Positions 19,425 through 64,000 of a DNA stretch of 64,000 nucleotides are shown in pieces (positions within the stretch are counted from its first letter, which is position 1; every line of letters starts with the position of its first letter). Under the pieces are notes generated by a model. That model had not been told where the DNA came from, searched no databases, and saw nothing but the letters and a program-made list of their open reading frames with translations. The translations under genes and the position numbers were made by a program. Where the stretch lies: assembly GCA_034359265.1 (NCBI GenBank), contig CP136893.1, forward strand, positions 25,738,001-25,802,000. Reading direction: 5' to 3'. Source of the stretch: Canna indica (lineage: Eukaryota > Streptophyta > Magnoliopsida > Zingiberales > Cannaceae).

Positions 19425-19700
19425 GGAAAGGCAGCGTCGAAAAATTGAGACGCCAGCGTTTCGACGCATCTGGCGTCGAAATATTTCGACGCCAGCGTTT
19501 CGACGCAGGTGGCGTCGAAATATTTCGACGCCGGTGCGTCGAAATGTTTCGACGCCGGTGCGTCGAAATGTTTCGACGCCACCATTTCGACGCAGGTGGC
19601 GTCGAAATGTTTCGACGCAGGTGGCGTCGAAATGTTTCGACGCAGGTGGCGTCGAAATGTTTCGACGCCACCTTTTCGACGCATGTGGCGTCGAAATGTT
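19425..19700. repeat. CACTA left subterminal repeat array
   Basis: About ten copies of gtcgaaatgtttcgacgc-type sequence alternate with caggtggc or ccggtgc. Each unit is itself partly palindromic (gacgcaggtggcgtc). The array gives long open frames in all frames on both strands; these are artefacts of a repeat without stop codons. In CACTA elements such repeats are typical transposase binding regions. A further near-perfect palindrome with 12-bp arms (cacgggttgaaa) lies at 19736-19760. Confidence 0.8.
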
Positions 19701-20096
19701 TTCCCGCGCGAACGCGCGGTCGTCGAAGCAAGTATCACGGGTTGAAAATTTCAACCCGTGAACGTACGGTAAGCAGCTAAAATTTCATTTCAGCTGCAGA
19801 ACGTACGAAATTATATATATATATATAATTTTTTTAATTATTGCTACAGTTACTTAATTAAATAAATATAAGTTTTACCTATAAAGTATCGGTTCACCGC
19901 CTAAATTTTTGAAGTCCCGCGCGCCTATTTCTTCCTTCGTCTTCCGATCGATTTCTGCTCCTTCTTTCTTCTTCCGATCGATTTCTATTTCTTCTTCTTC
20001 CTTCTTCTTCCATTAAAGTATCGGTTCGCTGCTGCCGATCGATTTCTTCGTCCGATTTCTTCCGTCGTCGAATCAGCAGGTAATTTCTTCCGTCCG

Positions 20097-20690
20097 ATTT
20101 CTGCTCCTTCTTCTTTCTTCTTCCGTCGCTACTCTTTTTTTTTTCTTCTTCTTCTTTCTTCTTCCGTCGCTGCTCCTTCTTCTCGTTTTTTTTTTCTTCT
20201 TCTTTCTTCTTCCGTCGCTGCTGGTTTTTTTTTTTTTTCTTTCTTCTTCCGTCGCTGCTGCTGCTTTTTTTTTTTTTCTTTTCTTTCTTCTTCCGTCGCT
20301 GCTGCTACTGTTTTTTTATTTTTTTATTTTTTTTTTCTTTCTTCCTCCGTCGCTGCTGCTGATGTTTTTTTTTTTCTTTTCTTTCTTCTTCCGTCGCTGC
20401 TGCTGCTGTTTTTTTTTTTTTTTTTCTTTTCTTTCTTCTTCCGTCGCTGCTGCTGCTGTTTTTTTGTTTTTTTTTTTCTTTCTTTTCTTTCTTCTTCCGT
20501 CGCTGCTGTTTCTTTTTTTTTTTCTTTTTTTTCTTTCTTCTTCCGTCGCTGCTGTTTTTTTTTTTTTTCGTCAATGCTGGTGCTGTTTGTTTTTTTTTTT
20601 TTTCGTCGCTGCTGATGTTTTTTTTTTTTTCTTCCTTCCTTCCGTCGCTGCTGCTGCTGCTGTGTTTTTTTTTTTTCCTTCGTTCTTCAC
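20097..20690. repeat. Pyrimidine-rich minisatellite with CCGTCGCTGCTG core
   Basis: About thirteen irregular units of roughly 40-50 bp consist of a poly-T stretch, a tttctttcttctt segment and ccgtcgctgctg with variable numbers of ctg triplets. It lies inside the CACTA element. Open frames here encode only phenylalanine-rich or lysine-rich low-complexity peptides. Confidence 0.85.
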
Positions 20691-31123: not shown

Positions 31124-31505
31124 ATGATGGCAGGTGCCCATCAAGTGAGCCGTGATGGGGGTATGAATAAAGGGCTGGCTTGCAGTAATAATCAAGATCA
31201 GAATAAGCACGAGGAAGTTGGGGATGCCGCTGCTGGGGAACGTCAAGGACTCTCTGAAGAAGAAGAGTCCAAGATCAATGAGACGGTGGGAGATTTGAAC
31301 AATAACCAGATAGCGGATGCTGCAAGACCAGCACAACAGTCTGGTGGTCCCCAAAAGCAGCAGCAGCCTCAGCAGCCACCACCAGGTCCAATCATCCGCT
31401 GGGAGAGGTTTCTTCCGGTCAGAACTCTCAAGGTTTTGTTGGTTGAAAATGATGATTGCACTCGCCAAGTTGTCAGTGCATTACTCCGAAATTGCAGTTA
31501 TGAGG
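31124..31505 (+). CDS. PRR37-like: PRR coding exon 1
   Basis: Encodes the N-terminal leader and the first part of the pseudo-receiver to NCSYE plus one base. The donor is G|gtaaat. The second ATG directly follows the first. Confidence 0.9.
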
Positions 31506-46500: not shown

Positions 46501-49500
46501 CGGTGTCGACCTTAGTCGTGTATGTCCCCAAGATATGTACGAGTACGACGGACGTCATTCGTCCGCATTTTAAATATTGTATTCATGTATTTGTCATTTG
46601 AATATTAAATTAAGTTTTTCTTGATTAATTATGTGTTAATGGAGTTATTTTTAACACCAAAATAAAAAAAACAACTTTTTTTCCTGTCCGGTATGCATTT
46701 TACGTACCAGCCCGTACCGTGTGTCGGTACGGTACCGGTACATATCGGTATCGGTCAAAGATCGAGATTGTTACCGGTATCGATATTTTAAACCATGATC
46801 TAAAGTACTCCTGATCGAGGTTTTAAGTACTATACCAAGGGTGGGGGGGGGGGGGGGTTGGGGCTATATAAACTCCCCATTTCACCCACACTCTCCCAAC
46901 CTCTTAAACTCTCTTTATTTCTTCATTTCCATATCGAAACCTTGCTAAAGTGATGCCGAAATCTCAAGTCGATCCCGCATGGCAGCACTGCCGTTGGTCG
47001 GAGAAGAACCACCGTCAATGTCTCTATTGTGAATTCATTGCTCTGTGGTGGAGGGATCACCCGGTTGAAGCAACATTTAGCCGGAGGATATCTCGATGTG
47101 GCCAAATGCAACCAAGCACTGGCAGAGGTCCACAATCTCTTCAAGGAGTTGCTCGACAATAAATGAGAGCAACGTGTTTGAGATGTCCAACAAAGAAAAG
47201 AGTTAAACCGTACAGAAGACGTGCACTACGCTACATAAGACATGCACTACGCTATAGAAGGCGTGTTTGAGATGTCAAATAAAAAAAAGAGTTCTAGCCA
47301 TTGGGTGTCTTTTTCTAACAGGTCCATTCGGCTAATTGGATCACTTTTTTTTTGTGGGGGTGGGGGGTGGGGGGTTAGGGCTATATAAACCCCCCATTTC
47401 ACCCATACACACTCTCCCAACCTCTCAAACTCTATTTTTTCTTAATTTCCATATCGAAATGCTACTGAAGTGACGCTGAAATCTCAAGCCGATCCCGCAT
47501 GGCAGCACTTCCATTGGTTGGAGAAGAACCATCGGCAATGTCTCTATTGTGAATTCATTGCTCGTGGTGGAGGGATCACCCGATTGAAGCAACATTTGGC
47601 CGGAGGATATCCCGATGTGGCCAAATGCAACCAAACACCAACAACAAGCTCTTCAAGGAGTTGCTCGACAATAAATGAGAGCAATGTGTTTGAGATTTCG
47701 AACAAAGAAAAGAGTTCGACCGATGAGCTACAAAAGACGTGCACTATGACCAATTTCATGGTCGTGGTGATGATGTTGAGGAGGATTCGGAGCTTGTAGC
47801 CGTCATCGATGCTTCATTGTAGCAACATGCATTCAAGCGAGATCGTTGGTCTGAGGATCACAATTTGAGTATGGCAGCAGCAACACCGGCAATGCTGACT
47901 CATCTTCGACTGCAGGAGCAATGTACCGAAGTGGTTCAATTCCCTCCGGTCATCATATTGATCGAAGTTCCAACATGAGGGGACCTTCAACCTAGAGCAG
48001 AGGCGGAAGCATCCGAGGCTTCTTCTCTTCCCACAAATCAAGCAATACGAGAGCTTCTACTGATATAACTAACCTTGATTTTAGGGCTTTTCCTTCTCAA
48101 GCATCGAAGCCACCGCGTATTGACGATGCTTGAAGCAAGAACAAGAAGTGAGAGTTGGGGAGAGCAATCTCCAAATGGTTCAACTTCAGTCGGATTCCAC
48201 CAAATGTAGCCAACAATACCTACTATCGATCTATGGTATTGACAATCCAAAAGATTGAGATGCCTACTTTCTACGACGGATGTCATTCTTCTGCATTTCG
48301 AAATATATTTGTATTCTTATTATTGAAATTTGAAGAAGAAAATTTGAAAAAAGTGTATTTGAAGAAGAAACCATGTATTGGACCATATTTGAGAAATTTA
48401 TGGATGTTTTCCGTCATTTATTAGTAAATTATATGTGTTTTGTAGCTTAAAACTATGTTTTCTAGCATGAAAAAAAATTACAAAAAAAAACAAACCAAGT
48501 CTGTGCCGGACTGTACCGAGTGTTAGTATGGTTACCGACCCTTCACCGAGATCGGTACCGGTATCGAGATTAAACCTTGCTTCATAGTCAATGCTATAGG
48601 TTTGAGTGTACCATTGAGCAACCAACCTCGGTTTGTATCTTTTGATCTGTCCATTGGACCCCATCTTGATGGGGAAAATCCACTTGCATCCCATTACTTT
48701 CTTCTCTCTAGGAAGATTAGCTAATTCCCATGTCTTGTTTTCTTCTAATGCCTTCGTTTTCTTCCATTAGAGCAACTCTCCATCTTGGATCATGTCTTGT
48801 TTTCTTCTAATGCCTTCGTTTTCTTCCATTAGAGCAACTCTCCATCTTGGATCACTTCGAGCATTTTGGATGTTTTGTGGCGACATCTATACCATCAATT
48901 TCTAAAATGCATACGCTGTAATTCTACGATAGCTTGTAATTTGAGAGATAATCTGAAATCAGATACTTAGTACAAGGTCTTACAGATCTTACTCCTTTTC
49001 TGATATCAATAGGAACATCAAGATCATGAATTATTACAGGATCCTCGTTTGGTGGAAGAGTTGTCTATGGTTCCAATTCTTGGTTTTGAACAAAAACTCG
49101 TGGTCTCCTTGAGTAAACACGAAGTTCACATTGAAGTTGGGATGGCTGTTTCAGTTTTCCCCCTTGACCTATTTCTTGAGTTGGCTCAAATTGGGGTCAA
49201 GATGTTGGTGAAGGTACGGATGTTGGTGGAAGTACCAGTGGAGGAGAGGTTGGAAGAGAGATTGGGAGAGAAATAGACGGATCCCAATGATTTTCTTCAC
49301 TTGATTTTTCCCCTGAAGAGAAGCATTAGGGTAGAAACTTTGATGCTCAAGGAAGGTTACATTATACGAGAATATGAATCATCTTAAGAGGGATAATAAC
49401 ACTTGTAACCTTTTTCGTAGGAGAGTAGCCAATAAATATGCATTTGATTGCTTTGGGTTCTAGTTTTCCACAGTTGGACTTGTGTTATGGGCATACACAG

Positions 49501-52500
49501 TACAACCAAAGACTTGATGTGAAACTGAATTTAGGACACAAACTTGAGGAAAGTATATTTATAAACATTGTAAAAGAGTGCAAAATTGAAGAGTTTCTGA
49601 AGGGAGCCTATTAATGAGGTAGGCTGCCTCTCCCTAGAAGAAATGTGGAACATGAGTAGTGAACATAAGGGTACAAGAAGATGACAAATTTTTTGTTCAA
49701 GAACCCCATTTTGTTGAAGAACATAAGTATATGAGCTTTGATGAAGCATACCATTCTCAAGTCATGTTTGTCTTTTAGAAGATAGACCCAACATGCATGA
49801 GTGGGGTCATTAATGAATCTAATGAAACATCTTGGTCCTGTGACATTAGGGAATGGAGTTGGCCCCCAAATATCCCTATGGATAAGATGAAATGATTTTG
49901 AGGGCTGAAAGGAATGATAAAGAATAACTATTGTCGGTTGTTTTGCAAAGATAAAATTCACACCAAAACAAAGAGGGATCTTTGTTAAAAAACAACTTTG
50001 GGTATATGTGCTTTAGATAATTAAAACTAGAATTATAAAGTCATTTGTGCCACAAGACAACATCAGAATTGGAAACTCTCGACAAATTTCCAGGAAGATT
50101 AGACCTTGGAGGAGTGTTGGTGAAGTAATAGAGACCATTTCGTCCTCAGCATTGCCAATCATCTTCCCGAAGACAGCTCCTGTGAGTAGGAAAGAAGGTT
50201 ACTGTACAATTTAGATCTTTAGTTAACCTACTAATAGACAGGTATGTTGTAGATGAGGTACATAAACAACTGAATTCAACTGGAGATTATATTGTGGATG
50301 AGGTACATAAAGGACTGAATTCAGCTGTAAATCACAGTATGAGGATATTTCGTCTACCACTATGACTTTCATGTTACCATTACATTGTTTATAATCAGTC
50401 AAAAGATTGAAAGAACCCGTCATATGGTTTCAGGCACCAGTGTCAACAATCGAACCCTCGCAAATATTATTTTTTGGTGAATGATATGTCTAGATATTAC
50501 CTTGTTGTGCAACAGTTGCCATAGAGGAGGATTGATCAACTTCAGAGTCTTTGGAGTCTTTGGTGGTCCGAGATGACTGCAACAGACTCCTTAGAACTTC
50601 TATATGTTAGGTTGTTAGTGGCAAGGAAGATAGACTGGTTTTTTGCATTTTTGTGGTAGACGGTAAAGTACCTTGCTATAGGCACGAGTTCGAGGTCGAG
50701 AAGAGTTTGCAAGCTCCACGATGGAATGTGTTGCAACAAGAGAGTTGGATGAGAAGAAGACTGGGAGGGAGAGAGAGAGAGAGGAAGATGAAGAGGTAGA
50801 GAGTAGAAGTAGAGAACATTGCAATTGAGAACTGCTCTATCATTCTCCTTCATTCTTTCCCATATAAATACACATTCTGTCCATAATTATCAGCTTTAAT
50901 TCTCACTTTTAGAGCTCACTAGCAGTTACATTATTTTATTTAATGTCATTAATAGCGGTCTTCAATTCTCACTCTTAAATTATCTTCAATTTTTATCCTT
51001 GAAATAAGTGCTGCCTTTATTCTTCTTTATGCGGCGTTCATACTTGACTATCTCCCTTTATCATGTGTGTCATGTGAGTTGGATGGCTAAGGTCTCTGCC
51101 ACATTGATGTGAGGTGGCTGCCAAGTGGGTGTAACAAGTCCTCCCTCCGGAGATACATGCTTGTCCCCAAGCATGAATTGTGGAAAGTCTTGATATAGTT
51201 GAGAGGATGGTTCCTAGGTTGCTTCATCATGAGGAAGGCCGGTCCATTGAACCAAGAGTTCTTCTAAACCGTTGTGCATTCGGCGAGCCAAGATGGCAGA
51301 GGGAGTGGGAAAGAGATCAACAGTGGAAGTGAGTGGTAGTATGGGTTGAGGAGGTGGGGCTGGACCTTGAAATTTCTTTAGGAATGAAACATGGAAAACA
51401 TTGTGGAGTTTGGCCTCCGGAGGAAGGTCAAGAGCATACGCCACTATCCCAATTTTGCGCAGGATGCGGAAGGGGCCATAAAACTTTGGGGATAGCTTCT
51501 GCGAAGTCCGTTGAGCCAACGATTTATGACGTTAAGGTTGGAGCTTAAGGAGGACCAAGTCGTTGACGTCAAAGTGGAGGTCACGATGTTTGTGATCGTA
51601 AGCCTTTTTCATAATTTGTTGTGCTTGTTGAAGCCGAGTACAGATGAGTTGTAAGTGAGTATCACGATCACATAGTGCTTGATCAACGACCTCCAGATTG
51701 GTAGTCCCCGTTGTGTAGGAGAGGAGATGTGGTGGTGGTCGACCATAGACGACTTCGAAGGGGCTGGTGCGAAGAGCTGTATGATATGTCGTATTATAAC
51801 AATACTCTACCCAAGGCAACCATTTGGTCTAGCTCTTCGGCATGTTGCTTGTGAAGCATCTGAGGTAGACTTCGACGTCGCGATTGACGACTTCAGATTG
51901 GCCATCTGATTGAGGGTGATAGGCTGAGGTGAAATTGAGTCGTACTCCGGATAGAGTGAATAATTCCTTCCAAAACTTGCTCGTGAAAGTGGGATCGCGA
52001 TCAGAGATGATTGATTCCGGCACCCCATGTAAGCAGACGATGTGGTCAAAGAAGAGACGCGCTACACTGGTTGCATTGTAGGGGTGACTCAGGGCAAGGA
52101 AGTGGGCATACTTGGAGAGCCGATCAACCACCACTAAGATGACATTCTTGCTTGTCGATGTTTGAAGGCCCTCAATGAAATCCATGGATAAATCTGCCCA
52201 AATTTGCTGTGGAACGGGCAACGGTTGTAGTAAACCAGCCGGTTGTAAGCTGTCTTTTTTGTTGTGTTGACATACGACGCATGATTGGACGTACTCTTGT
52301 ACATCGCAACGAAGTTGTTCCCAAAAAAACTCTGCACGTACTCGTTGGAGTGTACGTTGGTAGCCTTCATGGGTGGAATCATGAAGTGCTTATAAGATGG
52401 TGGAGTGGAGGGGAGACGCCGCTGGAATAACAATTTTGGTTTTGAAGAAGATAAGGCTGTCCCGAACTGTCCATAAGGATGGTTGTGGCATGAGTTTTGT

Positions 52501-55500
52501 TATCCCTCCATAAGTGCTGCATTTGTGGAGAGGACTGGAGTTTGGATTTGAGCTGCAAAATGAAGTGTGGTTGGGGAAAAGAAATAGCAGCAATGGACCC
52601 GACAACAATAGGCTTATGTGAGAGAGTGTCGACCGTTGTATTAGACTTGCCGGCTTTGTATTCAATGAGAAAGTCATATATTAACAGCTTGGAAACCCAA
52701 TGGTGTTGAGGATAAGTGGTCAACCGTTGTTCAAGAAGATACTTCAAGCTGTAATGATCAGTGCGGACGACAAATTGGCGGTCCCAAAGATAAGGTGTCC
52801 GGTGTTTGATACCCTTGACGAGGACTACTAGTTCCTTCTCATACGCCCTGAGTTTTTGCATATGGGCTGGAAATAGGCGGCTGAAATAAGTGACGGGGTG
52901 CCCATTTTGATGAAGGACAACGCCCATACCAGTAGTGGCTGCATCGCATTTGACTACAAAAGGTTGGGAGAAGTCTAGAAGAGCGAGATTAGGGGCTGTG
53001 GTGAGCGAGGACTTGAGTTGTTCAAAAGCGGTTGTAGCTTTTTCGTCCCAACTGAAATTGTTTTTCCGGAGCCAACCTGTGAGAGGGGCAGCAAGTACAC
53101 CATAATTTTTGATAAATTTGCGGTACTAGCCTGCTAGGCCGAGGAAGCTTCGTAGTTCAGCGGTTGTGACGGGTTGAGGCCATGATGATATTGTTGAAAT
53201 TTTTTGAGTATCGGTGTTGTCTCCTTTGTTAGAAATGATGTGGCCCAAGTATGTGATAGTAGGGACATCGAAAGTGCATTTGGACTCCTTGAGAAATAAT
53301 TGATGCTGCCTTAAGGTTGAGAAGACATTGTCGAGGTGAATGAGATGATCAGTTAAAGAAGGGCTGTAAATGAGGATGTCGTTGAAGAAGACAAGCACAT
53401 ACTTTTGCAGCATGGGGCGGAAAATCTCATTCATCCGGGCCTGGAAAGTGGATGGTGCATTGGCCAAGAATGCATTGGCATGACAAGGAACTCAAAGTGG
53501 CCATGATGAGTACGAAAGGCGGTCTTTTCTACACCATCTTCATGCATCCGAATTTGGTGATAGCCCGAACGCAGATCGAGTTTGGAATAGATGTAGTAGC
53601 CATGTAACTCGTCGAGTAGCTCATCAAAAATTTATCCTTGATTGTGATGGCATTCAAGGCATGGTAGTCGATGCACATTCTCCATGAGTCATCCTTCTTT
53701 TTGACAAGAAGGGTGGGCATTGAAAACAGTAGTCGATGTACTCGGTCGAATGATGCCTTGTTGGAGTAGTTGTTGGCATTGAGCTTCAATTTCATTCTTT
53801 TGCCGAAATGGGTATCGGTAAGGACGAACGACCACCGGTCCTGACTGTGGTTGTAGTCGGATGCGGTGGTCCCTTGATCAAAAGGGTGACAATCTTGTTG
53901 GCTCCTGAAACAAGCTTCTAAAAAGTATAAGAACATTTTCAACGCTGTCATGAGTTGCGAAAAGTACTGTTCTTGTTGGTGTGGATTGTTGTGGCTGAAT
54001 TCCTTGTAGCATGATGGTGCCGTTGGGAGTGGCATATTGCAACTTTTGCTTGTCAAAGTCCCATGTGATTGGCCCCAACGTTTGAAGCCATTGTACTCCA
54101 AGAACAACATCAAACCCGTTGAGTTTGATGATGAAAAATGATGTTATGGCTTCGTTGCCGAGGTGCCGAGTCACCATGTGGTCTCCAAGACAATGGAGGC
54201 GAGCTCCATTAGCAACTGTCACCGAGATGCCGTTGCGATGACGGACAGGAAGGTGAAGACGATGCGCCACCGAGGAGCTCAGGAAGTTATGTGTACTCCC
54301 TGAATCGAGGAATACACAGATGGGTAACCCGTAAACAGGGCTGCCGATATGCATGGTTTGAGGATGTGGGGTGCCCTGTAATGCCATGATGGACAGAGTA
54401 GGTTCTGTGTTGACCTCAGCCATGGGAATGATGTCATCATGGTTTGATAACTCCTCATTGGGCAACGACGGGCTCGGTGGTTCAGCTTCCACATCCGGTG
54501 TTATTTTCGACAGGTATAACTGGCGACAACGGTGAGTTGGATGCGACTCTTCATCACAATGGAAGCACAAGCCCTGCTGACGGCGAGCAGCAGCGTCTTC
54601 CTGGCTGAGCCGTCGGGTGGGGAGGCTGCGTTGGGTTCTTCTGATCGGCGGTCGGGAAACAGGGGAAGCAAGTGGATCACGACTGGTGGGGGCACGTGGT
54701 GTGAAAGAGGTATTGGAACCTTGGAGTAACGACCCGGAAGATCAACGAAGCATATATGACGTTTGAGACCACGCCACACGTTCGTACAAGCATGCAAGTC
54801 TCATGGCTTCCGTGAGGTTCACGGGGTTGAGAGCTTCGACTGGCACTTGAAGGTTGGGAGTGAGACCTCGTAAAAATAACTCAACCTCTTGTTCCGCGGA
54901 TAGTGTGCCGACGCGAGCAAGGAGTCACTGGAAGGAACGTTGATAATCGAGGACGGTTCTTGTTTGATGTAGATTGGCCAGGTCATCCAGTTTATTGCCT
55001 CAGCTTGGCGGCCCGAAGCGACGATGACAGTAATCTTGGAAGCCCGTTCATGTGAGGTGGGGAATGTCTGACATCAGTTTTAGCACCCAAAATTGCGCAT
55101 CGTCGGTCATGTGGCACGCTGCAATAGCTACCTTGGATTCCTCAAGAATTGGATGGAAGAGGAAATATTGATCACAACGTGCTAACCATGGTAGGGGTCC
55201 TTTGAGCCATCGTAGCATGGAAATTCGAAATGAGGTGATCGTTGATGCAGGTGGATGGTGCCGATTTCTTCCGGTGGAAATGGTGGACATGGGTGGCCTT
55301 GGCGCCGAGGTACTTGGCCGAGGATGCCTTCCGTCGTTAGTGGTGGGGCAAGTCGCTGAACTGTAGCCGATTCACGACGAATGGAGGCGCTGTCATCTTC
55401 CACCGTGGCCGGAGTTCGAAGGGCCTCCATGTTTTTTGAGAGAGCTGCTACTTGGGCTAAGATCTGCCCGCGTTCAGCGCGTTCTTGCTCGCATTCAGCG

Positions 55501-58500
55501 CGGTCATGGGCTTGGGAAGTAGTTATTTTGCGCATGAAGTTCAAGACCTGATCTTGGAAGGTCTCTCCCATGCCTGAATCTGATACCAACTTGTCAAGTA
55601 CCTTGCTATAGGCACGAGTTCGGGGTTGAGAAGAGTTTGCAAGCTCCACGATAGAATGTGTTGCAACAAGAGAGTTGGATGAGAAGAAGACTGGGAGGGA
55701 GAGAGAGAGAGGAAGGAGGAGAGGAAGATGAAGAGGTAGACAATAGAAGTACAGAACATTGCAATTGAGAAATGCTCTATCATTCTCCTTCATTCTTTCC
55801 CATATAAATACATATTTTGTCCATAATTACCAGCTTTAATTCTCACTTTTAAAGCTCACTAGCAGTTACATTATTTTATTTAATGTCATTATGAGCGGTC
55901 TTCGATTCTCACTCTTAAATTATCTTCAATTTTTATCCTTGAAATGAGTGCTGCATTTATTCTTCTTTATGCGGCGTTCATACTTGACTCTCTATCTCCC
56001 TTCATCATGTGTGTCATATGAGTTGGATGGCTGAGGTGGCTGGCTGCCACATTGATGCTGAGGTGGCTGCCAAGTGGGTGTAACATAGATTTTGCTACAT
56101 GTGCTGACAGCTAACTTTTGCTGACTCTAATGTTTCCAATTGGCTGGCTTCCCATGAATCTCCGAGCATGTTTCTCTATTGCAGTGTTATCTTTGTGGAT
56201 TTTGGTTTTTGTTGTTGTCAGAAGCAACCCAGCATTTAGGCAAAGCATAACTAGGCTGGGTATCTTGAGCGTTGGAATTTAGTGAACTATGGAGTAAGGT
56301 TTAAAATCTCAGCACGGACGTACCGACACGGTATGATCCAGTACCGAAAAATGATACCAGTACCGAAAATGAACAGTATGGTGCCTTGCAGTATGGTGCA
56401 ACAATACCATACCAAGCAGTATGGTGCAGCACCAACCGTACCCATACAGGGTGGTACTGCTTGATATCAAGTACGGTACCACCCGCTATGGGCGGTATTA
56501 TGGAATACTGGGCGATATCGGTACACCTGGTACCGACTGGTACTGCGTTGTATTGGATACAGGCTTTCTCAAAAATCCTTTACAGTACGGTTTTTGAAAC
56601 CATGCTATGGAGCATAACTCTCTTTCAGTTCTCTCATCTAACTTCAGCAAATACTTCTGGAATAGATGAAGGAGGCTTTATTCCAACTGGAAGCAGCATT
56701 CAAATTAAAGCATCCGGGTAACCAGATAGGAGTGATGCCCCGGATCCATTTTGCTTATGAGTACTTAGAAGACCAGTGTAAACGTGCAGCTTTCCAGAAG
56801 AGTCTTAAGGATCTATCTATCTGCAGTAAGATCCCTCTACCAGGCTATTACAGCAAGAGCAAGAAATACAGCCTGAGAAAAGCCAAGAATTATAAGGGCA
56901 AGCCGCACAACACTCACATTAGAATCTTCAAGAGAAAATACTCAGATAAAACGAAGAAATGCAAATGCTTCATATGTGGGGAGGAAGGACACTACGCGCG
57001 AGAATGTTCGAGGAAGCAAGGAAACATCGCCAGGGCGGCGATAATTGAGAATCTAGATCTCCCAGATGATTGGGACGTATTATCCGTCGACCTCGACGAG
57101 CCAGACAGTGATGCCATCTGCTCACTCTCTGAAGGAGAGTCTGTTTCGGAACTCACAACGGCACTAGCTAAGGCAGATTTCCCATACGAAATAGTACTCG
57201 TGATAATAACCGAGGAAATCCCAGAGAAAGACAACAATATTAGTTGGAGAACTGATGTTGCCCTACCCGAGGCCATGAACAGATGCACGCACCTTTGGGA
57301 AGATAACAGCATGGACATAACACAGGGTTGCGAGCATTGCACGCTCTGCAAAGAAATGACGAACCCTAAGATGAGAGCCCATTGCCGAAATTGCTGTATA
57401 ACAGTTTGCCCCATGTGCTCGAGGTTCATACTAGGGCGAAAGCTAGTTGTCAAGTGCTTCGCATGCTCTTCTTCAGTCTCCGAGAAAACAAGTATGTCGT
57501 CGATGTAGACGGCAATGTATTTTTCGGTTCCAGCGAAACACTGATCCATTTTTCTCTGGAAAACCGAGGGTGCATTTTTGAGGCCGAACGGCATCACTAG
57601 CCATTCGTAGAGGCCTCCAGGGACTGTGAATGCGGTCCAAGGGATGGACTCGGGGCTCATTGCCACTTGATGAAACCCACTCTTCAGATCAAACTTCGAG
57701 AATACCTTACTATTCCCGACTTGTTTTAGTATGGTGTTGATCCCGGGTAGACTATATTGGTCCTTGTAGGTGTTATCATTGAGTGTTTTGTAATTGAACA
57801 CCAGACGCTCTTTTCCTCTAGTCTCCTTCTTGGTGGCGGGATCGACGCTTATGCCTGATTGGACAATCATTGCCATTGTCCGATGTCTGCTGGAGCTTGG
57901 TCTTATAGCTCCGAGTTTCAGAAGGCTCTGGATGTGTTTGGCGAACTGTTCTTTTATTGCAGGCGTGACATGTTTCAGTGGTCTGTCCTGGATGGTGATA
58001 TCAGGATTTATTATGTCTAGCTTGCACATGATCTGGTTCTTACTCCAGTGTCTGATAGGGTCTTCCCCTATATATCCTTGTTCCTCCAGCCTTCTCAGTA
58101 ATGGCTTAAATTTCTGTTTGAACGTACGAGATTCTTCCTGCTCGTTTTCTTCTGTAGACGAGCTACTCAGTAGTTCAATGTATTCTTCGTCCGTTAATTC
58201 GAACCAGAGTCAGCGAACAAGCTATCAATCGAAGCAACCTCATCTGCCGAAATCTTTCCACAAGAAATAGTCACCAACATGGATGACAAGAAGACAACGG
58301 AGCAACCGCGGGGACAGAGGATCCTGAATAGACTATACAACATAGTCATAATCATGGAGATACCCCAGGTAAAAACATTTAAAGTTCAGGCGATCTTAGA
58401 TACTGGTGCAACAGTTTGTTGCATTGATCTCAACTCTGTACCTGAAGAAGCTTTGGAGCCAAGCGCGTACCCCATACTGATTAATGGGGTAAACTCACAA

Positions 58501-61500
58501 CAAATGGCCAGTAAGAAGCTAAGGGGCGGATACATGAAGATAGAAGAGAACAGATTCCCAATTCCCTTCACCTACGCGTTTCCCATGAGTAAGAAAGATG
58601 GGATTCAAATGCTCGTAGGATGCAACTTTATCAGATCTATGAAAGGAGGTCTGAGAATTGAAGGACAGGCAATCACGTTCTACAAGAAAGTTACCACGAT
58701 CACAACTAGCACAGACGCAGCAATGTCTGTATCAACCGCCATGGATGAATTCGAATTAACGGACGAAGAATACATTGAACTACTGAGTAGCTCGTCTACA
58801 GAAGAAAACGAGCAGGAAGAATCTCGTACGTTCAAACAGAAATTTAAGCCATTACTGAGAAGGCTGGAGGAACAAGGATATATAGGGGAAGACCCTATCA
58901 GACACTGGAGTAAGAACCAGATCATGTGCAAGCTAGACATAATAAATCCTGATATCACCATCCAGGACAGACCACTGAAACATGTCACGCCTGCAATAAA
59001 AGAACAGTTCGCCAAACACATCCAGAGCCTTCTGAAACTCGGAGCTATAAGACCAAGCTCCAGCAGACATCGGACAATGGCAATGATTGTCCAATCAGGC
59101 ATAAGCGTCGATCCCGCCACCAAGAAGGAGACTAGAGGAAAAGAGCGTCTGGTGTTCAATTACAAAACACTCAATGATAACACCTACAAGGACCAATATA
59201 GTCTACCCGGGATCAACACCATACTAAAACAAGTCGGGAATAGTAAGGTATTCTCGAAGTTTGATCTGAAGAGTGGGTTTCATCAAGTGGCAATGAGCCC
59301 CGAGTCCATCCCTTGGACCGCATTCACAGTCCCTGGAGGCCTCTACGAATGGCTAGTGATGCCGTTCGGCCTCAAAAATGCACCCTCGGTTTTCCAGAGA
59401 AAAATGGATCAGTGTTTCGCTGGAACCGAAAAATACATTGCCGTCTACATCGACGACATACTTGTTTTCTCGGAGACTGAAGAAGAGCATGCGAAGCACT
59501 TGACAACTAGCTTTCGCCCTAGTATGAACCTCGAGCACATGGGGCAAACTGTTATACAGCAATTTCGGCAATGGGCTCTCATCTTAGGGTTCGTCATTTC
59601 TTTGCAGAGCGTGCAACGCTCGCAACCCTGTGTTATGTCCATGCTGTTATCTTCCCAAAGGTGCGTGCATCTGTTCATGGCCTCGGGTAGGGCAACATCA
59701 GTTCTCCAACTAATATTGTTGTCTTTCTCTGGGATTTCCTCGGTTATTATCACGAGTACTGTTTCGTATGGGAAATCTGCCTTAGCTAGTGCCGTTGTGA
59801 GTTCCGAAACAGACTCTCCTTCAGAGAGTGAGCAGATGGCATCACTGTCTGGCTCGTCGAGGTCGACGGATAATACGTCCCAATCATCTGGGAGATCTAG
59901 ATTCTCAATTATCGCCGCCCTGGCGATGTTTCCTTGCTTCCTCGAACATTCTCGCGCGTAGTGTCCTTCCTCCCCACATATGAAGCATTTGCATTTCTTC
60001 GTTTTATCTGAGTATTTTCTCTTGAAGATTCTAATGTGAGTGTTGTGCGGCTTGCCCTTATAATTCTTGGCTTTTCTCAGGCTGTATTTCTTGCTCTTGC
60101 TGTAATAGCCTGGTAGAGGGATCTTACTGCAGATAGATAGATCCTTAAGACTCTTCTGGAAAGCTGCACGTTTACACTGGTCTTCTAAGTACTCATAAGC
60201 AAAATGGATCCGGGGCATCACTCCTATCTGGTTACCCGGATGCTTTAATTTGAATGCTGCTTCCAGTTCCTTTCCCATAATTGGGGGCATTTTTCTAAAG
60301 ACTTTCTCGGATAATTCAGTCGAGACGAACATCCTTCCTGACTTGGCAGCCAGTACCTTGTAATCATTCAGATAATCAAACAAGTCTTTGACACTGTTGC
60401 AGGTAAGTCTTTCAAGGTCCTCATAGGCTCTGTCCTGTTCTTCCGTAGAGCCCGAGGATGGATCCCGTAATAGGATCATTCTTCTTACTTGAGCGGTCAC
60501 ATTCTGGGGATCGTCTGCTATGCCAACGATTTCTTCATATTCTTTGGGGTACGCCATTCTCCACTGGATCCACATCTTTTTCTCATTCTCACCCAGTAGA
60601 TTCTCTATGAAGACTACCTTGGACCTGTTGTCTGTCCAGGTTCTCTCATTGACTAAATTTAATGTAATTGATTCCCAGCGGGCAATTATATCACTATATA
60701 GCCCGAAATGCTCTGGTAGTGATAGGATGGCTCCTGTGTTGGACTGTGCACTGGGTAAGGTATACTTACCGTCATATGCTTTTGCGTATCCTCCCCTCAG
60801 ACTGCCAATCTTTGCTCTCATCATGCTCGAGTCTCCTTGATAGATTGGTCTCACGTTGATGGTAGTAGCCGGGGGGGTACATGGCTGGTCCCATAACAGG
60901 TTCTCTAGGTAACTGGGTAGCCGTTGATGCGGATGAATCAGCTGTCGTGAAAGCTGACTCTGTTTTCTTCACAGGGGTCACTGATTCGGCTTTCTTGATA
61001 GCCTTGTCTAACTTCTTGAAAACCTCATCCAAATCTTTGTTCAGTCATTGGAGAAAATCTAACACTTGATCCTTTTCGAGCATTGGGTTTAGAGCACTTC
61101 ATTATGAGGGCAATGCCATGTCACTTCATAAAAAATAGCCATTTTTTGCCACAAGTTAGTTAGAATATTATAAAACTCAGTTACTGACCTTGTCCATTGC
61201 TGAGTGTTGCGAATTGTAGATCCAATTTCAAAGCACTGAGATGTGCTTTCAAAATCCAAATACATCGCCTGAATAGCTCTCCAGTTTTCATGGGTGGTTT
61301 TGTAGAATAGAAATGTGTTAGAAAATCAACCTTGGACGTAACTCCACCCCAAAAGCTAGCTCAAAGGGGGAGGATTGCCCAATCTATTTAAAGGTCATCT
61401 AGACCACAACCTCAAGCAATGTGGGACTTAATTTAACACCCCCCTCATGCCCAGGATCCACACTGGAGCGTGAAGTTCTGCAGGTGGCCTACTCTCAACC

Positions 61501-64000
61501 ATAGGTTTGGCTCTAATACCATGATAGAAAATCAGCCTTTGACCTAACTCTACTCCAAAAGCTAGCTCAAAGGGGGAGGATTGCCCAATTTATTTAAAGG
61601 TCATCTAGAGTCTAGACCACAATCTCAAGCAATGTGGGACTTTAACAAAATGTCCTTCCAATTTCCGGTTCCATGGAGTTAATCAACCACGCTATTAAAA
61701 TGGAATTCCCAGCCTCCCATGTCCTAGAATGGGCGTAGGTAATAGTTGGTGGGTAATCTCACTGGTAAGATACTCGGTCTTCTCTTTTCCTCTAACTACG
61801 AGCAACACAGATTGGAACCATTCACGAAAATTTAATCCATTTAATTTATGTTAGGTAATTTATAGGGAAGGGGGTAATTTACAGAAGTTGGATTGGTTTG
61901 TGGGACTTGTCTAGGCTGTGTTGTAGTGAATTCGACACTATCCATTGTTTAGTGAACCGAAGGAGCTGAGTAACTCCAACAAGATTGTTCGGCTTTATAC
62001 CATAAAACAGTAGGCTTTTCAAATACTCCTCTTTCTTCATCTATTCCATATGAAAATCTTACAATATATAGGAGTTATGCTACCAAAGATAGATAGCATG
62101 ATTCTAGGAATGCAATCAATACAAATTTATGCTACTAAAAATAGATAACCATGATTATAGGAATGCAATCAATACAAATTAGTGATTCTAGGAGTAAATC
62201 GCTAATCCAAATTTTTGGCTATTTGAATCACTAAATATCTTGGATTTTTCTTTTTTTCCAACAATTCTTATTCAATAAAGTTAATTTTGAGGGTTTTCTA
62301 TTCTAATGGCTTAGAATCCTCGCATAGTTATTTTGTGCAATCTTATCCAGTTTACACAGATTATTGCTTACATTTACCTGGCATGCATAAGAAAGTAGAT
62401 AGTTGTGTGTCTAGCCATGCGTAAATCATAATATTATTTTATCTCTTTTACAGGATATTACTAAGATAAACCAAGATCATGTACCAACAAATCTAGTAGA
62501 GCACTCAGCACATAACAGATGATTTGATCAAAATCAATTCTCATTTCGCCATATTATTTATTTCACGAAAAGTAGAAAGTCCTGTTTTTTCACATTAAAA
62601 ACCTGGATGATTCAGAAGTCATCTAAAGATTAAATAATCATTAGTAGAAAAATTGATTCATGTTCAAACAGATCACCAGAATCCTAAATTTATCCCGTAA
62701 ACTTCAGAATATGATGTAATCCTTACAAAATTAAAAAAAAAACAAATAATCAAATATCATCCCTCAAATTATCAACCTTCTTTGAGCGTTTTATTGATTA
62801 GGCTATATACCATAATTAGGGATCAATCAAATTTACGGTATGCTCATTCCACCAACTAATCAGCAGAACTAACTGGTTCTTACCCTCTCAAACTTTTCCA
62901 GATTTGATCTAACTTGGTTAAATTCTTCCCATATTCAATTCCTCCATATAGTCTCTCTTCTACTTGTTTAAGTCCTACAATGTAATTGTAATCCAAAAGA
63001 TATTGGGGCTTTGAGTTGAGAATAACTTGATTTATTCATGGTCACCATGAGGGAGTGGCAGATAGCTTGTCATTGCGACAAGAGGAAGGTAAGAAGTGCT
63101 TCTCATTATAACTCAAGTCATTAATTAAAGGCATAATATTAGAGTGTTAATAGTAAGCCTGATGATTGTTCCATTGGTTCTAAGAGCATATTGAAAAGGC
63201 AAAAGGTAATTTTTTCCCCTTAATAGTCAAGCAAATAGTAAAGTACTAGGTGGATATTTGGAGGGACATATTTGAGTGTTTTTGAAGGAAATATCTTATC
63301 TTCTATCACTAATTGATTGTCTAGGAATTTAAGATGAAGAGGATGCCTTTTGTTGCCCTTTTCCGCAATTCCCCCACATTGCCTAGGAATAAATGCTCCC
63401 ATAGAGATAAATGATTGAAAATTCTCTTAACTTTGACATGCAGAGTTCCTGGACAAAGCGTGCTGCAGAAGTTGATAGCCCCCAGCCTATGTCTTCCTCG
63501 GACCGATTAGCTGATCCACCTGATAGTACTTGTGCACAGGTCATTCACTCAGCACCTGAAACTTTATGTAAAGATCAGGTGCCTATATCTGCCACTAGGG
63601 AGAACCATGGTAAAAGGGAACTTGCTGGTAAGTCATTCTCACTTCAAAAAGAGCTAACTTCTTGCACATTTTCCATTCTCTTGTTAAACTTTAGTTTGAT
63701 CTCTAGATGATTGCATGGGAAAAGACTTGGAGATAGGAGTATGCAGGAGTTCAGAATATGGAACTCATCCAAGCGACCAGGATCGTACCAAACTTACGGA
63801 CACAAAGGTGGACGATTTATCTGAAAAGGAAACCAAGAATGAGGGATGTTTGGGCAGTCTTCCGAACAATGCATTTGATGAGTCGAGTGCACAAGCAGCT
63901 AATCAGATAACTGCAATTGCCAATAGTTCAGACACTCAAGTGGCCAGAGCTATTCAGCGTCCTAGTAGCTTCTCCAAGATCTCAGAAGGCCAAGATAAGG
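31124..64000 (+). CDS. PRR37-like: Pseudo-response regulator, PRR37/PRR7 type (5' part of gene, six coding exons)
   Basis: PRR proteins are nuclear transcriptional repressors of the plant circadian clock; the PRR3/7/37 group also controls flowering time. The joined exons encode 438 residues before the window ends. Residues 1-96 are a hydrophilic, glutamine-rich leader. Residues 97-226 form the pseudo-receiver domain, with acidic residues E108/D110/D111 in LLVENDDCT, glutamate (E154, [10 protein letters not shown]) in place of the phospho-accepting aspartate, and the conserved lysine K206 (LLKPI). Residues 227-279 are serine-rich ([20 protein letters not shown]). Exon 5 carries [17 protein letters not shown], a PRR3/7/37-clade signature. 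Splice phases agree at every junction. The CCT domain must lie beyond the window. The start is the first of two adjacent ATGs. No stop or frameshift is seen, so the gene appears intact despite a 27.1-kb fourth intron. Confidence 0.9.
31506..32859. other. PRR intron 1, left part
   Basis: Typical T-rich plant intron sequence without recognisable genes. A small palindrome with 10-bp arms (atatcatggt) lies at 32818-32844, close to where the hAT remnant begins. Confidence 0.6.
32860..35001 (-). mobile_element. hAT transposon remnant in PRR intron 1
   Basis: On the minus strand the element begins with the terminus catggttcgaaatctc at 35001, followed by ggtac/taccgg-rich subterminal sequence and a ctatata promoter-like motif (about 34757). 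It then has an N-terminal BED-type reading ([20 protein letters not shown], 34614 downward). Further along, [19 protein letters not shown] and [13 protein letters not shown] segments follow, then the C-terminal dimerisation motif [12 protein letters not shown] around 33310. The far end stops near 32860 within the acidic C-terminal tail and lacks a matching terminus, so it is truncated. Many stops are present. It is the same family as the complete element at 42600-46797, in opposite orientation. Confidence 0.8.
35330..35491 (+). CDS. PRR37-like: PRR coding exon 2
   Basis: Begins after the acceptor ctttgacag and encodes [20 protein letters not shown] to NTPVI plus one base. It contains E154, replacing the phospho-acceptor. 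The donor is gtgagt. Confidence 0.9.
35581..35714 (+). CDS. PRR37-like: PRR coding exon 3
   Basis: Begins after ttttgtgcag and encodes [20 protein letters not shown] through HVWRRCHS. It contains K206 of the receiver fold. The donor is gtaagt, phase 0. Confidence 0.9.
36188..36346 (+). CDS. PRR37-like: PRR coding exon 4
   Basis: Begins after atcccag with [20 protein letters not shown] and ends GSGTQ before gtgagc. It encodes 53 serine-, aspartate- and asparagine-rich residues. Confidence 0.88.
36347..36554. other. Native left end of PRR intron 4
   Basis: AT-rich sequence between the exon 4 donor and the first LTR. No features are seen. Confidence 0.5.
36555..36840 (+). repeat. Left (5') LTR, truncated
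   Basis: Matches the 3' part of the right LTR from attggag onward. It contains a pyrimidine-rich ctctttct stretch and ends gtaatctcaga. Confidence 0.7.
37084..38030 (+). pseudogene. Gypsy gag remnant with CCHC zinc knuckle
   Basis: The first 118 codons are open and contain [18 protein letters not shown] and [18 protein letters not shown], typical of gypsy capsid. A stop at 37438 and further frame changes follow. A zinc knuckle reading [14 protein letters not shown] is recognisable near 37880, in a different frame. The protein would bind genomic RNA in the virus-like particle; here it is broken. Confidence 0.75.
38110..40850 (+). pseudogene. Gypsy pol remnant: RT, RNase H, integrase
   Basis: Reverse transcriptase begins around [19 protein letters not shown], then passes several stops to a 313-codon open segment (38646-39587). 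That segment contains [12 protein letters not shown] with the catalytic FFDD intact, the [20 protein letters not shown] region, [13 protein letters not shown] and an RNase H part ([24 protein letters not shown]). Integrase follows in broken frames (about 39780-40520). The C-terminal part, [18 protein letters not shown] to [11 protein letters not shown], is open at 40537-40845. No clear chromodomain is seen before the right LTR. Confidence 0.85.
40923..41384 (+). repeat. Right (3') LTR
   Basis: Begins TGTTACGAACG directly after a purine-rich tract and includes the sequences shared with the left LTR. The exact right end is uncertain within about 20 bp. Confidence 0.7.
41385..41710. other. Intron sequence between retroelements
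   Basis: No coding signature. This may be native intron or an unrecognised LTR part. Confidence 0.35.
41711..42599 (-). pseudogene. Ty1/copia 3' portion: end of reverse transcriptase, RNase H, LTR start
   Basis: On the minus strand the catalytic box appears near 42540 as AYVDNMTI (second aspartate changed to asparagine). It is followed by [20 protein letters not shown] and, through many stops, RLDISF and the RNase H tail [19 protein letters not shown] polypurine-type tract (cttgcgggggag on the minus strand, 41801-41812) directly precedes TGTTAGGGACTT, the apparent start of the 3' LTR at 41800. The left limit of the LTR is not defined. The reading is separated from the rest of the element by hAT insertions. 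Confidence 0.7.
42855..46405 (+). pseudogene. hAT transposase pseudogene (BED finger, DUF659, hAT dimerisation)
   Basis: The N-terminus [14 protein letters not shown] is followed by a BED-type finger with [20 protein letters not shown]. After a TAG (43074) and other stops, a 149-codon open part (43541-43987) has the DUF659 signature, including [20 protein letters not shown]. Then comes [16 protein letters not shown]. The C-terminal dimerisation region near 45090 reads [19 protein letters not shown]. The reading is cut at 45309 by a MITE and resumes at 45724 with an acidic, serine-rich tail ending at 46405 ([11 protein letters not shown]). DDE residues cannot all be verified. Stops make it inactive, though its ends look mobilisable. 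Confidence 0.85.
45310..45723. mobile_element. hAT-type MITE nested in the hAT transposase gene
   Basis: The element has perfect 17-bp terminal inverted repeats (catggtttaaaataccg) and the 8-bp duplication gattggag at 45302-45309 and 45724-45731. The interior is dominated by ggtaccgg/taccgg and accgcccggtat words, which make the two halves complementary. Its ends match those of its host element, so it could be mobilised by the same transposase family. Length 414 bp; non-coding. Confidence 0.93.
46806..48585 (+). mobile_element. Second, decayed hAT element with internally duplicated 5' region
   Basis: The left end is near gaggttttaagtactatacc (about 46817). The right end is near 48578, where tatcgagattaaacctt is the inverted counterpart. 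Two copies of the promoter and BED-finger exon occur in tandem, 517 bp apart: ctatataaac at 46864 and 47381, and DPAWQH at about 46970 and 47487. A remnant of the DUF659 entry ([20 protein letters not shown]) lies at 48155. The catalytic region and dimerisation domain are deleted. No target duplication was found. Poly-G runs at about 46844-46857 and 47357-47372 lie upstream of each TATA-like box. Confidence 0.7.
48586..50661 (-). pseudogene. Ty1/copia middle portion: protease, integrase, start of reverse transcriptase
   Basis: On the minus strand, from high to low coordinates, these pieces appear in order. A protease-like segment includes [20 protein letters not shown] (50423 downward). A GAG-pre-integrase to integrase piece reads [27 protein letters not shown] and [11 protein letters not shown] (49961-49700). 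[15 protein letters not shown] follows. The start of reverse transcriptase reads [35 protein letters not shown] (48694-48590). It breaks off at the hAT end. Numerous stops are present. Confidence 0.8.
48729..48852. repeat. 62-bp exact tandem duplication
   Basis: The segment catgtcttgttttcttctaa... at 48729-48790 is repeated exactly at 48791-48852. It lies in the copia region just before the reverse transcriptase, on the antisense side. Identity of the copies implies a recent slippage or gap-repair event. Confidence 0.9.
50662..51136 (-). repeat. Chromovirus 3' LTR
   Basis: Nearly identical to 55592-56085, sharing accttgctataggcacgagt and caagtgggtgtaaca. It contains a gagagaga stretch and agctttaattctcactttt. 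The junction at 50662 is slightly diverged from that of the other LTR. Confidence 0.85.
51137..54700 (-). pseudogene. Chromovirus pol: protease, RT, RNase H, integrase, chromodomain
   Basis: Minus-strand order: a zinc knuckle [14 protein letters not shown] (about 54565); protease [15 protein letters not shown] (about 54300); RT in pieces with a mutated catalytic box, [10 protein letters not shown], where the first aspartate of FFDD is asparagine (about 53390); the [10 protein letters not shown] region; RNase H with [20 protein letters not shown] (52927-52379); integrase with [26 protein letters not shown] and [13 protein letters not shown] (52221-51829). The C-terminal part is [28 protein letters not shown], then a chromodomain ([20 protein letters not shown]). 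Frameshifts occur between RT and RNase H and within RT. Confidence 0.88.
54701..55591 (-). pseudogene. Chromovirus gag
   Basis: The minus-strand open frame covers the end of the LTR leader and then a gag segment with [20 protein letters not shown] and [15 protein letters not shown] (the usual GDDPxxW-type region), followed by a stop and a shifted continuation to about 54800. It precedes the zinc knuckle. This is the capsid and nucleocapsid part of the element. Confidence 0.7.
55592..56085 (-). repeat. Chromovirus 5' LTR
   Basis: Begins at 56085 on the minus strand with TGTTACACCC and ends at 55592 with CA, directly before the primer-binding site. It carries a few short insertions relative to the other LTR. 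Confidence 0.85.
56086..56294 (-). pseudogene. Copia gag zinc-knuckle fragment
   Basis: On the minus strand the piece [16 protein letters not shown] can be read near 56120-56170, the typical end of a copia-type gag zinc knuckle (CxxxHGKPxNWK context). It is upstream, in element order, of the chromovirus insertion, and is continued by the protease fragment beyond the chromovirus. Confidence 0.6.
56295..56604. mobile_element. hAT-type MITE of the CATGGTTT family
   Basis: The left end reads taaggtttaaaatctcag and the right end (reverse complement) catggtttcaaaaaccgt. The 8-bp duplication ctatggag occurs at 56287-56294 and 56605-56612. The interior is rich in ggtac and taccg words. Length 310 bp; non-coding. 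It interrupts the copia gag reading. Confidence 0.9.
56605..56682 (-). pseudogene. Copia gag fragment beside the viral segment
   Basis: The minus strand reads [15 protein letters not shown], a conserved copia gag stretch, followed by decay toward the MITE. On the other side of the viral segment, copia gag resumes with NKDLDEV. This shows that the viral DNA lies inside copia gag. Confidence 0.7.
56685..57430 (+). pseudogene. Badnavirus-like capsid protein fragment, left copy
   Basis: An open plus-strand frame begins within the capsid C-terminal half. It contains a CX2CX4HX4C zinc knuckle near 56969 (key residues C, C, H, C) and, near 57330-57417, a second cysteine cluster with spacing CX2CX11CX2CX4CX2C. 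The frame then runs without a stop into the antisense of reverse transcriptase and ends at 57508. The last 26 or so residues are therefore an artefact of the fusion. The N-terminal half of the capsid is absent in this copy. Confidence 0.85.
57431..58203 (-). pseudogene. Badnavirus-like reverse transcriptase fragment, left copy
   Basis: The minus-strand frame runs from the arm edge (58203) through the N-terminal connection to the RT catalytic box YIDD near 57496-57507, then crosses into antisense capsid sequence at about 57435. Protease is absent in this copy because the arm ends before it. The fingers and palm region is uninterrupted. RNase H is missing. Confidence 0.85.
58204..58749 (+). other. 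Single-copy spacer (loop) of the viral inverted repeat: protease region
   Basis: This 546-bp block is present once. It encodes, on the plus strand, the region upstream of and including the aspartic protease (catalytic LDTGA at about 58396-58410). It continues in frame into the right arm. In a transcript it would be the loop of a hairpin. Confidence 0.85.
58204..59515 (+). pseudogene. Badnavirus-like protease-reverse transcriptase fragment, right copy
   Basis: A continuous plus-strand frame covers protease (DTG active site at residue 41 counted from the ATG at 58279) and reverse transcriptase with the catalytic YIDD at 59446-59457. Palm-domain motifs are intact. At about 59510 the frame passes into antisense capsid sequence and remains open to 59961, so the last 150 or so residues are not viral protein. 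RNase H, which should follow RT, is missing. No upstream movement protein is fused. Confidence 0.88.
58750..60268 (-). repeat. Right arm of 1519-bp viral inverted repeat
   Basis: Reverse-complement partner of 56685-58203. It contains RT (plus strand) and the capsid C-terminal half (minus strand), joined at about 59510. Confidence 0.92.
59516..61025 (-). pseudogene. Badnavirus-like capsid protein fragment, right copy (longer)
   Basis: The minus-strand open frame from 60854 runs 1.3 kb through the capsid domain, the CX2CX4HX4C knuckle (about 59975) and the second cysteine cluster to the fusion point. A second frame (61032-60772) carries the preceding lysine- and threonine-rich segment, implying one frameshift near 60850. 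From 60269 to 61025 the sequence is single copy. The N-terminal junction with copia gag is at about 61025. Confidence 0.85.
61026..61315 (-). pseudogene. Copia gag fragment
   Basis: Minus-strand reading: [47 protein letters not shown] and [12 protein letters not shown], then NKDLDEV. These are standard copia gag landmarks. A stop after FLQ is present. It continues on the far side of the TRIM element. Confidence 0.75.
61316..61647 (-). mobile_element. TRIM (terminal-repeat retrotransposon in miniature)
   Basis: Two LTRs of 123 and 126 bp (61316-61438 and 61522-61647) flank about 83 bp. On the minus strand the 5' LTR starts TGTTAAAGTCCCACATTGC and is followed by tggtattagagcc, a tRNA-Met primer-binding site (61509-61521). 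A polypurine tract gagggggg precedes the 3' LTR. The 5-bp duplication aaatg flanks the element (61311-61315 and 61648-61652). There is no coding capacity. All diagnostic parts of a TRIM are present. Confidence 0.92.
61648..62002 (-). pseudogene. Copia gag N-terminal region and leader
   Basis: Minus-strand pieces read [20 protein letters not shown] and [20 protein letters not shown] in different frames, the beginning of copia gag. A possible primer-binding site ggctttatacca (61991-62002; tggtataaagcc on the minus strand) marks the border with the LTR. Confidence 0.7.
62003..62263 (-). repeat. Probable 5' LTR of the copia element
   Basis: On the minus strand it starts TGTTGGAAAAAAAG and ends just before the primer-binding site. 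An internal direct repeat (aggaatgcaatcaatacaaa) occurs twice. Its sequence does not resemble the supposed 3' LTR at 41711-41800, so pairing is unresolved. Confidence 0.5.
62264..63443. other. Native right end of PRR intron 4
   Basis: AT-rich intronic sequence ending in the acceptor ctttgacatgcag. No transposon sequence was recognised. Confidence 0.6.
63444..63627 (+). CDS. PRR37-like: PRR coding exon 5
   Basis: Begins after gacatgcag with [20 protein letters not shown] and includes [18 protein letters not shown], conserved in the PRR37/PRR7 group. It ends with one base before gtaagt. It lies 27.1 kb from exon 4. Confidence 0.9.
63707..64000 (+). CDS. PRR37-like: PRR coding exon 6 (continues beyond window)
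   Basis: Begins after gatctctag and reads [20 protein letters not shown] onward to the window end at SEGQDK without a stop. It is the linker region between the pseudo-receiver and the CCT domain. The rest of the exon is outside. Confidence 0.88.

Follow-up and report, generated by a model that had tools for sequence, protein, structure and literature searches.

A near-identical inverted repeat of badnavirus-like sequence in an intron of a PRR37/73-like gene of Canna indica

Can viral DNA lodged in an intron of a plant clock gene serve as a source of double-stranded RNA (dsRNA) and small interfering RNAs (siRNAs), and on what would such siRNAs act? This question is raised by a 64,000-nucleotide stretch of the Canna indica genome (assembly GCA_034359265.1, contig CP136893.1, positions 25,738,001 to 25,802,000 of the forward strand; the whole stretch is called the window here), in which a first-pass annotation had described two nearly identical, oppositely oriented arms of badnavirus-like sequence within intron 4 of an apparently intact pseudo-response regulator (PRR) gene. 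Our best reading is that the sequence represents a defective, badnavirus-like endogenous caulimovirid captured in a transposon-rich intron, and, as judged by predicted folding, the hairpin potential of this intronic viral repeat is real. The repeat has three parts:

56685-58203, + strand: left arm of the inverted repeat, 1519 nt
58204-58749, + strand: loop between the arms, 546 nt, containing a viral aspartic protease at 58372-58653 (+)
58750-60268, - strand: right arm of the inverted repeat, 1519 nt

The coordinates, arm length, loop length and opposite orientation agree exactly with those given in the first-pass annotation. The near identity that it claimed for the arms also stands, since the alignment it had proposed revealed differences at only 2 of 1519 positions (99.87% identity). 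When a 4184-nt piece of the + strand (both arms, the loop and 300 nt of flank per side) was folded with ViennaRNA, 1517 of the 1519 arm positions were predicted to pair with their mirror partners, in line with the hairpin potential of about 1.5 kb suggested earlier; such a hairpin would form from a transcript of either strand. A BLAST comparison of intron 4 with its own reverse strand (E <= 1e-5) produced four inverted pairs: besides the arm pair, there was one pair of 120 bp, and the other two were short self-palindromes. The two arms end in different neighbours: viral coat sequence runs on past the right arm, and the sequence left of the left arm is non-viral. We ruled out that the arms are the terminal inverted repeats of a transposon, as they encode coat and reverse transcriptase (RT) sequences and none of the seven scanned open reading frames (ORFs) carries a transposase domain. 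No Rfam match was obtained within the window at gathering thresholds, and the plasmid collection contained no match to the sequence.

What the arms encode was examined by Pfam domain search and by tblastn of 164 fetched proteins (E <= 1e-4). By Pfam, the right part encodes a caulimovirid coat domain together with a zinc knuckle on its - strand, and a protease and an RT are read from the + strand across the loop and right arm; the left arm has the coat half, the zinc knuckle and the RT in inverted copy. The caulimovirid coat family PF22909 was found at 59448-60968 (-) with an E-value of 1.1e-43 and in the left arm with 5.6e-18, and the caulimovirid-type protease and RT are represented by PF02160 (2.4e-6), PF00077 and PF00078. 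The locus thus has both the coat domain and the protease/RT by which an endogenous caulimovirid is recognized, and the badnavirus-like origin first proposed holds on these domains. The combined results define the following segments:

56685-57454, + strand: coat segment, left-arm copy, with the C-terminal coat half, the zinc knuckle and a Cys-rich stretch (Pfam, tblastn)
57451-58203, - strand: RT segment, left-arm copy (Pfam, tblastn)
58309-59502, + strand: protease-RT segment, whose loop part is unique and whose RT part lies in the right arm (Pfam, tblastn)
59499-60990, - strand: coat segment, right copy, longer than the left-arm one (Pfam, tblastn)
57451-57454 and again 59499-59502, no strand assigned: tail-to-tail junction of coat and RT (alignment ends)

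On the scale of a Rhynchospora tenuis protein (P0046), the left arm runs through coat residues 97-350 (+) and then RT residues 843-595 (-), and the loop and right arm run through protease-RT residues 448-843 (+) and then coat residues 350-1 (-). Because the two viral segments are oppositely directed within each arm, an arm is a rearranged composite in which viral collinearity is lost. Both arms have the same 70 nt around the coat/RT junction, which indicates a single origin of this junction that preceded the inverse duplication. Two pieces of a single viral polyprotein gene, one coat and one protease-RT, meet tail to tail, and the greater part of this composite recurs in inverse orientation. 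The earlier statement that the arms cover capsid and RT therefore needs to be narrowed: each arm does carry the RT and the coat domain from its C-terminal half onward, with the protease confined to the loop, but not in collinear order.

The coat and protease-RT matches together span 56681-60990 without a gap (one protein, P0004, being set aside), so that no space remains in which a viral promoter region could lie. At the left edge, 38 of the 49 proteins with a left-arm coat alignment start at 56684; P0004 alone extends leftward to 56441, which we read as over-extension. For all 12 RNase H-bearing queries that were checked, the match breaks off at 59502-59517 and leaves much of the protein unaligned. 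A complete viral gene set was not found, only coat and protease-RT being matched, with the movement part probed by a single protein (P0044), and the presence of a whole virus at the locus is ruled out by the segment map. The coat frame shifts at 60821-60868, beyond which the N-terminal part, up to about 60990, matches its homologs in another frame.

With regard to viral affinity, the coat ORF was matched by 45 proteins (7998 candidates scored), of which 30 are listed under the name of a plant and 15 under no name. The protease-RT region had 622 matches, with three named viruses among the best 120 listed; some of the listed matches are labelled 'Ty3-gypsy subclass', a source name from genome annotation. 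In this region, the protein shares 70% identity with P0046 and 66% with Dioscorea bacilliform virus, the nearest named virus among the matches listed; two sweet potato viruses reach 57 and 55%. The protein search, the length limits of which exclude full-length badnavirus polyproteins, retrieved no close named virus, so that a closer one is possible; the viral_contigs scans confirmed no relative. A tree of 72 rows (the query plus those 71 of the 120 listed matches that cover the region) placed the query as sister to two sequences annotated in Rhynchospora tenuis (support 100/95), with the three named viruses elsewhere. We take pakakuy virus and Dioscorea bacilliform virus to be badnaviruses. 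As no row is named as another genus and the tree was only midpoint-rooted for drawing, the assignment stops at 'badnavirus-like'. Downstream of the zinc knuckle, the coat ORF has a Cys-rich stretch, as judged by eye; a second Cys-rich stretch in this position is, we assume, typical of badnaviruses.

The host gene was modelled as follows:

31124-31505, 35330-35491, 35581-35714 and 36188-36346, + strand: coding exons 1-4 of a PRR37/73-like gene (GT-AG sites, open frame, PF00072)
36347-63443, + strand: PRR intron 4, 27,097 bp as counted over coding exons, full of transposon remains
63444-63627, and from 63707 until cut by the window end at 64000, + strand: PRR coding exons 5 and 6 (homolog alignment)

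With the start codon set at the first ATG of the open stretch, the six coding exons have GT-AG sites and give an open frame of 438 amino acids up to the window end, which falls in exon 6; the location in intron 4 of an apparently intact PRR gene is thereby upheld. The product has the receiver domain PF00072. A homolog search (7992 candidates scored; best 120 of 1118 matches considered) yielded PRR73 of Musa troglodytarum (78% identity) and homologs from M. acuminata (75%), Zingiber (71%) and Curcuma (69%), with a query coverage of 100% in two Musa homologs. These identities suggest a host that is probably a member of the Zingiberales other than the Musa and ginger species sampled. The join of exons 4 and 5 is colinear with five aligned homologs, of which rice PRR37 is two residues longer at this point. 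Most of the listed homologs have a C-terminal CCT domain (PF06203), and the window stops in exon 6. By its receiver domain and exon order, the gene is classified as a PRR37/73-like clock gene, and the gene model and colinear homologs place the repeat inside an intron predicted to be spliced. PRR genes show a strong daily rhythm of transcription.

We also considered whether siRNAs from the hairpin might be directed against the PRR gene itself. The arm and the six PRR exons in the window have no 12-mer in common, so that an effect of such siRNAs on the part of the PRR mRNA seen here is unlikely. Elsewhere in the window, a 12-mer in common with the arm was found at 11 positions and a 14-mer at none.

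The viral stretch is bordered on both sides by remains of retroelements:

50663-56085, - strand: Ty3/gypsy-type element with long terminal repeats (LTRs) at 50663-51136 and 55593-56085, left of the viral stretch
61092-61850, - strand: gag-like remains immediately adjoining the viral stretch on its right, with a copia-type gag at 61698-61850

The LTRs of the gypsy element differ by a Kimura two-parameter (K2P) distance of 0.048, and about 600 bp of non-viral sequence separates the element from the left arm. Its flanks, compared by eye, read TAGAC/TAGAT with one mismatch, which indicates that it landed in non-viral sequence beside the viral stretch. This element was ruled out as the origin of the arms: it sits in non-viral sequence, and its RT region matches 12 proteins at 22-53% identity, compared with 63-71% for the left-arm RT. 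On the other side, the copia-type gag scored 21.5 bits, under the Pfam cut-off of 24.1; the second half of these copia-like remains may be an RVT_2 piece that lies, likewise on the - strand, at 48.4-48.8 kb. No LTR pair for them was found, and a copia LTR promoter for the repeat is hypothetical. Other parts of the intron hold gypsy and hAT-like remains. An older gypsy element lies at 36558-41385 (+ strand, LTR-like ends about 79% alike), and a perfect tandem duplication with a 62-bp unit is present at 48729-48854, beside the RVT_2 piece. Separately, related repeats about 72-76% alike occur in inverted orientation at 32904-34786 (intron 1) and 42679-47716 (intron 4), flanking exons 2-4; the latter area carries zf-BED and DUF659, which we take to be hAT-like. 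Such an inverted pair in introns 1 and 4 could in principle favour back-splicing.

How old is the insertion? No stop codon was found in 2250 aligned in-frame sites (1056 coat and 1194 protease-RT) in pieces picked by alignment, the frame change near 60.85 kb being excluded. If substitutions alone acted, these sites would stay free of stops with a probability of 0.40 for a neutral divergence of 1% and of 0.066 for one of 3%. The arms have diverged by 0.13% (95% limits 0.016-0.48%), and their two differences translate, at assumed rates of 4.5e-9 to 1.3e-8, into about 0.05-0.15 Myr (limits 0.006-0.53), compared with 1.8-5.3 Myr for the gypsy LTRs; this dating is weak, as the differences mark no more than the latest duplication or gene conversion. 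These values fit a young event, although gene conversion between the arms would equally keep them alike. On the best reading, the endogenous caulimovirid is fairly young.

Comparable structures have been reported in other plants. In tomato, rearranged endogenous caulimovirid inverted repeats (TSAs) give rise to dense 22-nt siRNAs and can trigger decay of matching transcripts (Valli et al., via PMC10377300), and in soybean, inverted repeats of caulimovirid and transposable element (TE) sequence feed the Dicer-like (DCL) enzyme DCL2 (PMC10377300). The Canna repeat resembles the TSAs as a rearranged endogenous caulimovirid in a hairpin-capable inverted form; unlike them, with their dense 22-nt siRNAs and reported silencing, it is known from sequence alone and lies inside a host-gene intron. 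An inverted repeat in soybean derived from RNA1 of cucumber mosaic virus (CMV) yields siRNAs only from its repeated part (da Fonseca et al. 2016, via PMC6256188). It too is a long inverted repeat of viral origin in a plant genome, with about 0.5 kb between its arms, but it comes from an RNA virus of another family, comprises 3.4 kb of viral sequence with a plant-derived spacer and lies just downstream of a copia promoter, whereas the Canna repeat derives from a DNA virus, has viral protease sequence as its spacer and has no promoter identified. Intronic siRNA precursors have been named 'sirtrons' (PMC5545994), which the Canna repeat resembles as hairpin-competent sequence in an intron of a protein-coding gene; it differs in its viral origin and in that only its DNA sequence is on record.

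Endogenous viral elements (EVEs) within or near genes are likewise familiar. At eggplant R1a, the gene is disrupted by a badnavirus insertion with copia elements, which supplies a viral promoter and from which co-transcripts arise (PMC8346255). The combination of a badnavirus EVE and copia elements in a host gene is similar in Canna, with the differences that the PRR exons are intact and that the word 'inverted' is absent from the eggplant account. PMC9124383 mentions 'inverted repeat' solely among its references and is not drawn on here. The endogenous banana streak virus (eBSV) of Musa balbisiana is badnavirus DNA that is fragmented, duplicated in opposite directions and able to restore virus (PMC10377300); the Canna locus is fragmented and inversely duplicated as well, but contains only coat and protease-RT. 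In grapevine, 9% of the florendoviral EVEs overlap with host genes, in almost every case within an intron (PMC10377300). A search of open-licence literature found no paper with both 'pseudo-response regulator' and 'badnavirus', and among the matches listed no title or abstract opening dealt with an intronic clock-gene case. The first-pass annotation held that a natural, intron-borne, clock-driven antiviral RNA source would be new; both caulimovirid inverted repeats with DCL2-dependent 22-nt siRNAs and intronic siRNA precursors are already in print, whereas a clock-gated output, which is hypothetical here, would be new.

The account that we favour, at even balance, is that the repeat is a defective caulimovirid by-product of viral DNA capture, whose hairpin siRNAs act mainly on their own locus and its relatives, and that it is no selected antiviral device. 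RNA polymerase II read-through of the 27-kb PRR intron, or reading of a neighbouring transposon, would transcribe the repeat; the transcript would fold into about 1.5 kb of dsRNA; DCL enzymes would cut it into 21-24-nt siRNAs (22-nt by DCL2, 24-nt by DCL3); and these would act mainly on the locus itself and any related endogenous copies, via methylation or transcript cleavage. The chain starts from a repeat that is hairpin-competent and devoid of a viral promoter region, and we infer the transcription, dicing and silencing that would follow; on the best reading, dsRNA arises only if something other than a viral promoter transcribes the repeat. Several points weigh against this account: it assumes that the repeat is read through by a polymerase, introns rich in TEs are at times heterochromatic and could silence it, and related endogenous copies as siRNA targets are hypothetical. 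In addition, the frame change near 60.85 kb implies that some decay has begun and counts against great youth. It is quite possible, if short of probable, that the repeat is instead an inert relic, either heterochromatic or spliced out and degraded, with only background 24-nt siRNAs of RNA-directed DNA methylation (RdDM) like those of the adjoining transposons. Its position among gypsy, copia-like and hAT-like remains and the lack of room for a viral promoter are consistent with this, as are the PRR frame and splice sites, which are intact despite the 27-kb intron, so that intron 4 is presumably removed as usual. However, an inverted repeat that is close to perfect makes a good DCL substrate once it is transcribed, and 22-nt siRNAs do come from published inverted repeats of caulimovirids (PMC10377300).

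A clock-driven antiviral role is unlikely. That the intron-borne hairpin is driven by the clock and that its siRNAs defend the plant against related badnaviruses has, in our view, a slight chance of being right: a hairpin could form from either strand, the clock gene that holds the repeat is apparently intact, the viral regions involved (coat and RT) are conserved ones, and reviews propose that EVE siRNAs act on cognate viruses (PMC10377300, PMC6256188). Yet siRNA targeting requires near-identical stretches, the nearest tree neighbours are the two sequences annotated in Rhynchospora tenuis, and the low protease-RT identity of the three listed viruses also speaks against it, though weakly given the length limits of the search. 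The fuller version, in which read-through at the daily PRR peak would feed a diced hairpin, clock-following siRNAs would silence badna-like viruses or endogenous copies, and the repeat and the likeness of its arms would have been kept as useful, we hold to be very improbable. Equally doubtful is an assembly artefact, in which a fold-back or chimeric read duplicated one arm. The near identity of the arms would be explained in this way, but they differ at two positions, enclose a unique 546-nt loop and end in different neighbours, and inverted duplications have been described for endogenous badnaviruses (PMC10377300). Finally, the locus resembles eBSV as described (PMC10377300) in being rearranged, inverted and little decayed, so that it might be thought part of a releasable provirus from which recombination restores virus. 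Unless the missing gene parts are located beyond the window, the chance of this is close to nil, as coat and protease-RT fill the stretch (with P0044 as the only movement probe), the 12 RNase H-bearing queries checked all stop at 59502-59517 and the coat frame changes near 60.85 kb.

If the repeat is transcribed, it would offer a natural test case of a rhythmic host promoter driving a viral hairpin in an unmodified plant, in which one could trace over 24 h how host transcription and intron splicing relate to the siRNAs that a viral fossil puts out. A silent repeat would be a further example of a captured and rearranged caulimovirid fragment in a plant intron.

Besides the PRR locus, the window has several other features. 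LINE-like remains with zf-RVT, RVT_3, endonuclease and RVT_1 domains are present at 1201-2361 and 13932-15969. A self-inverted stretch of about 550 bp with 80% identity lies in an AT-rich region at 9167-9713. Dense tandem arrays occupy 19434-20685, in a region of strong AT skew, with 24-39-bp units containing TTTCGACGC and a 44-98-bp CTTCTTC-rich array.

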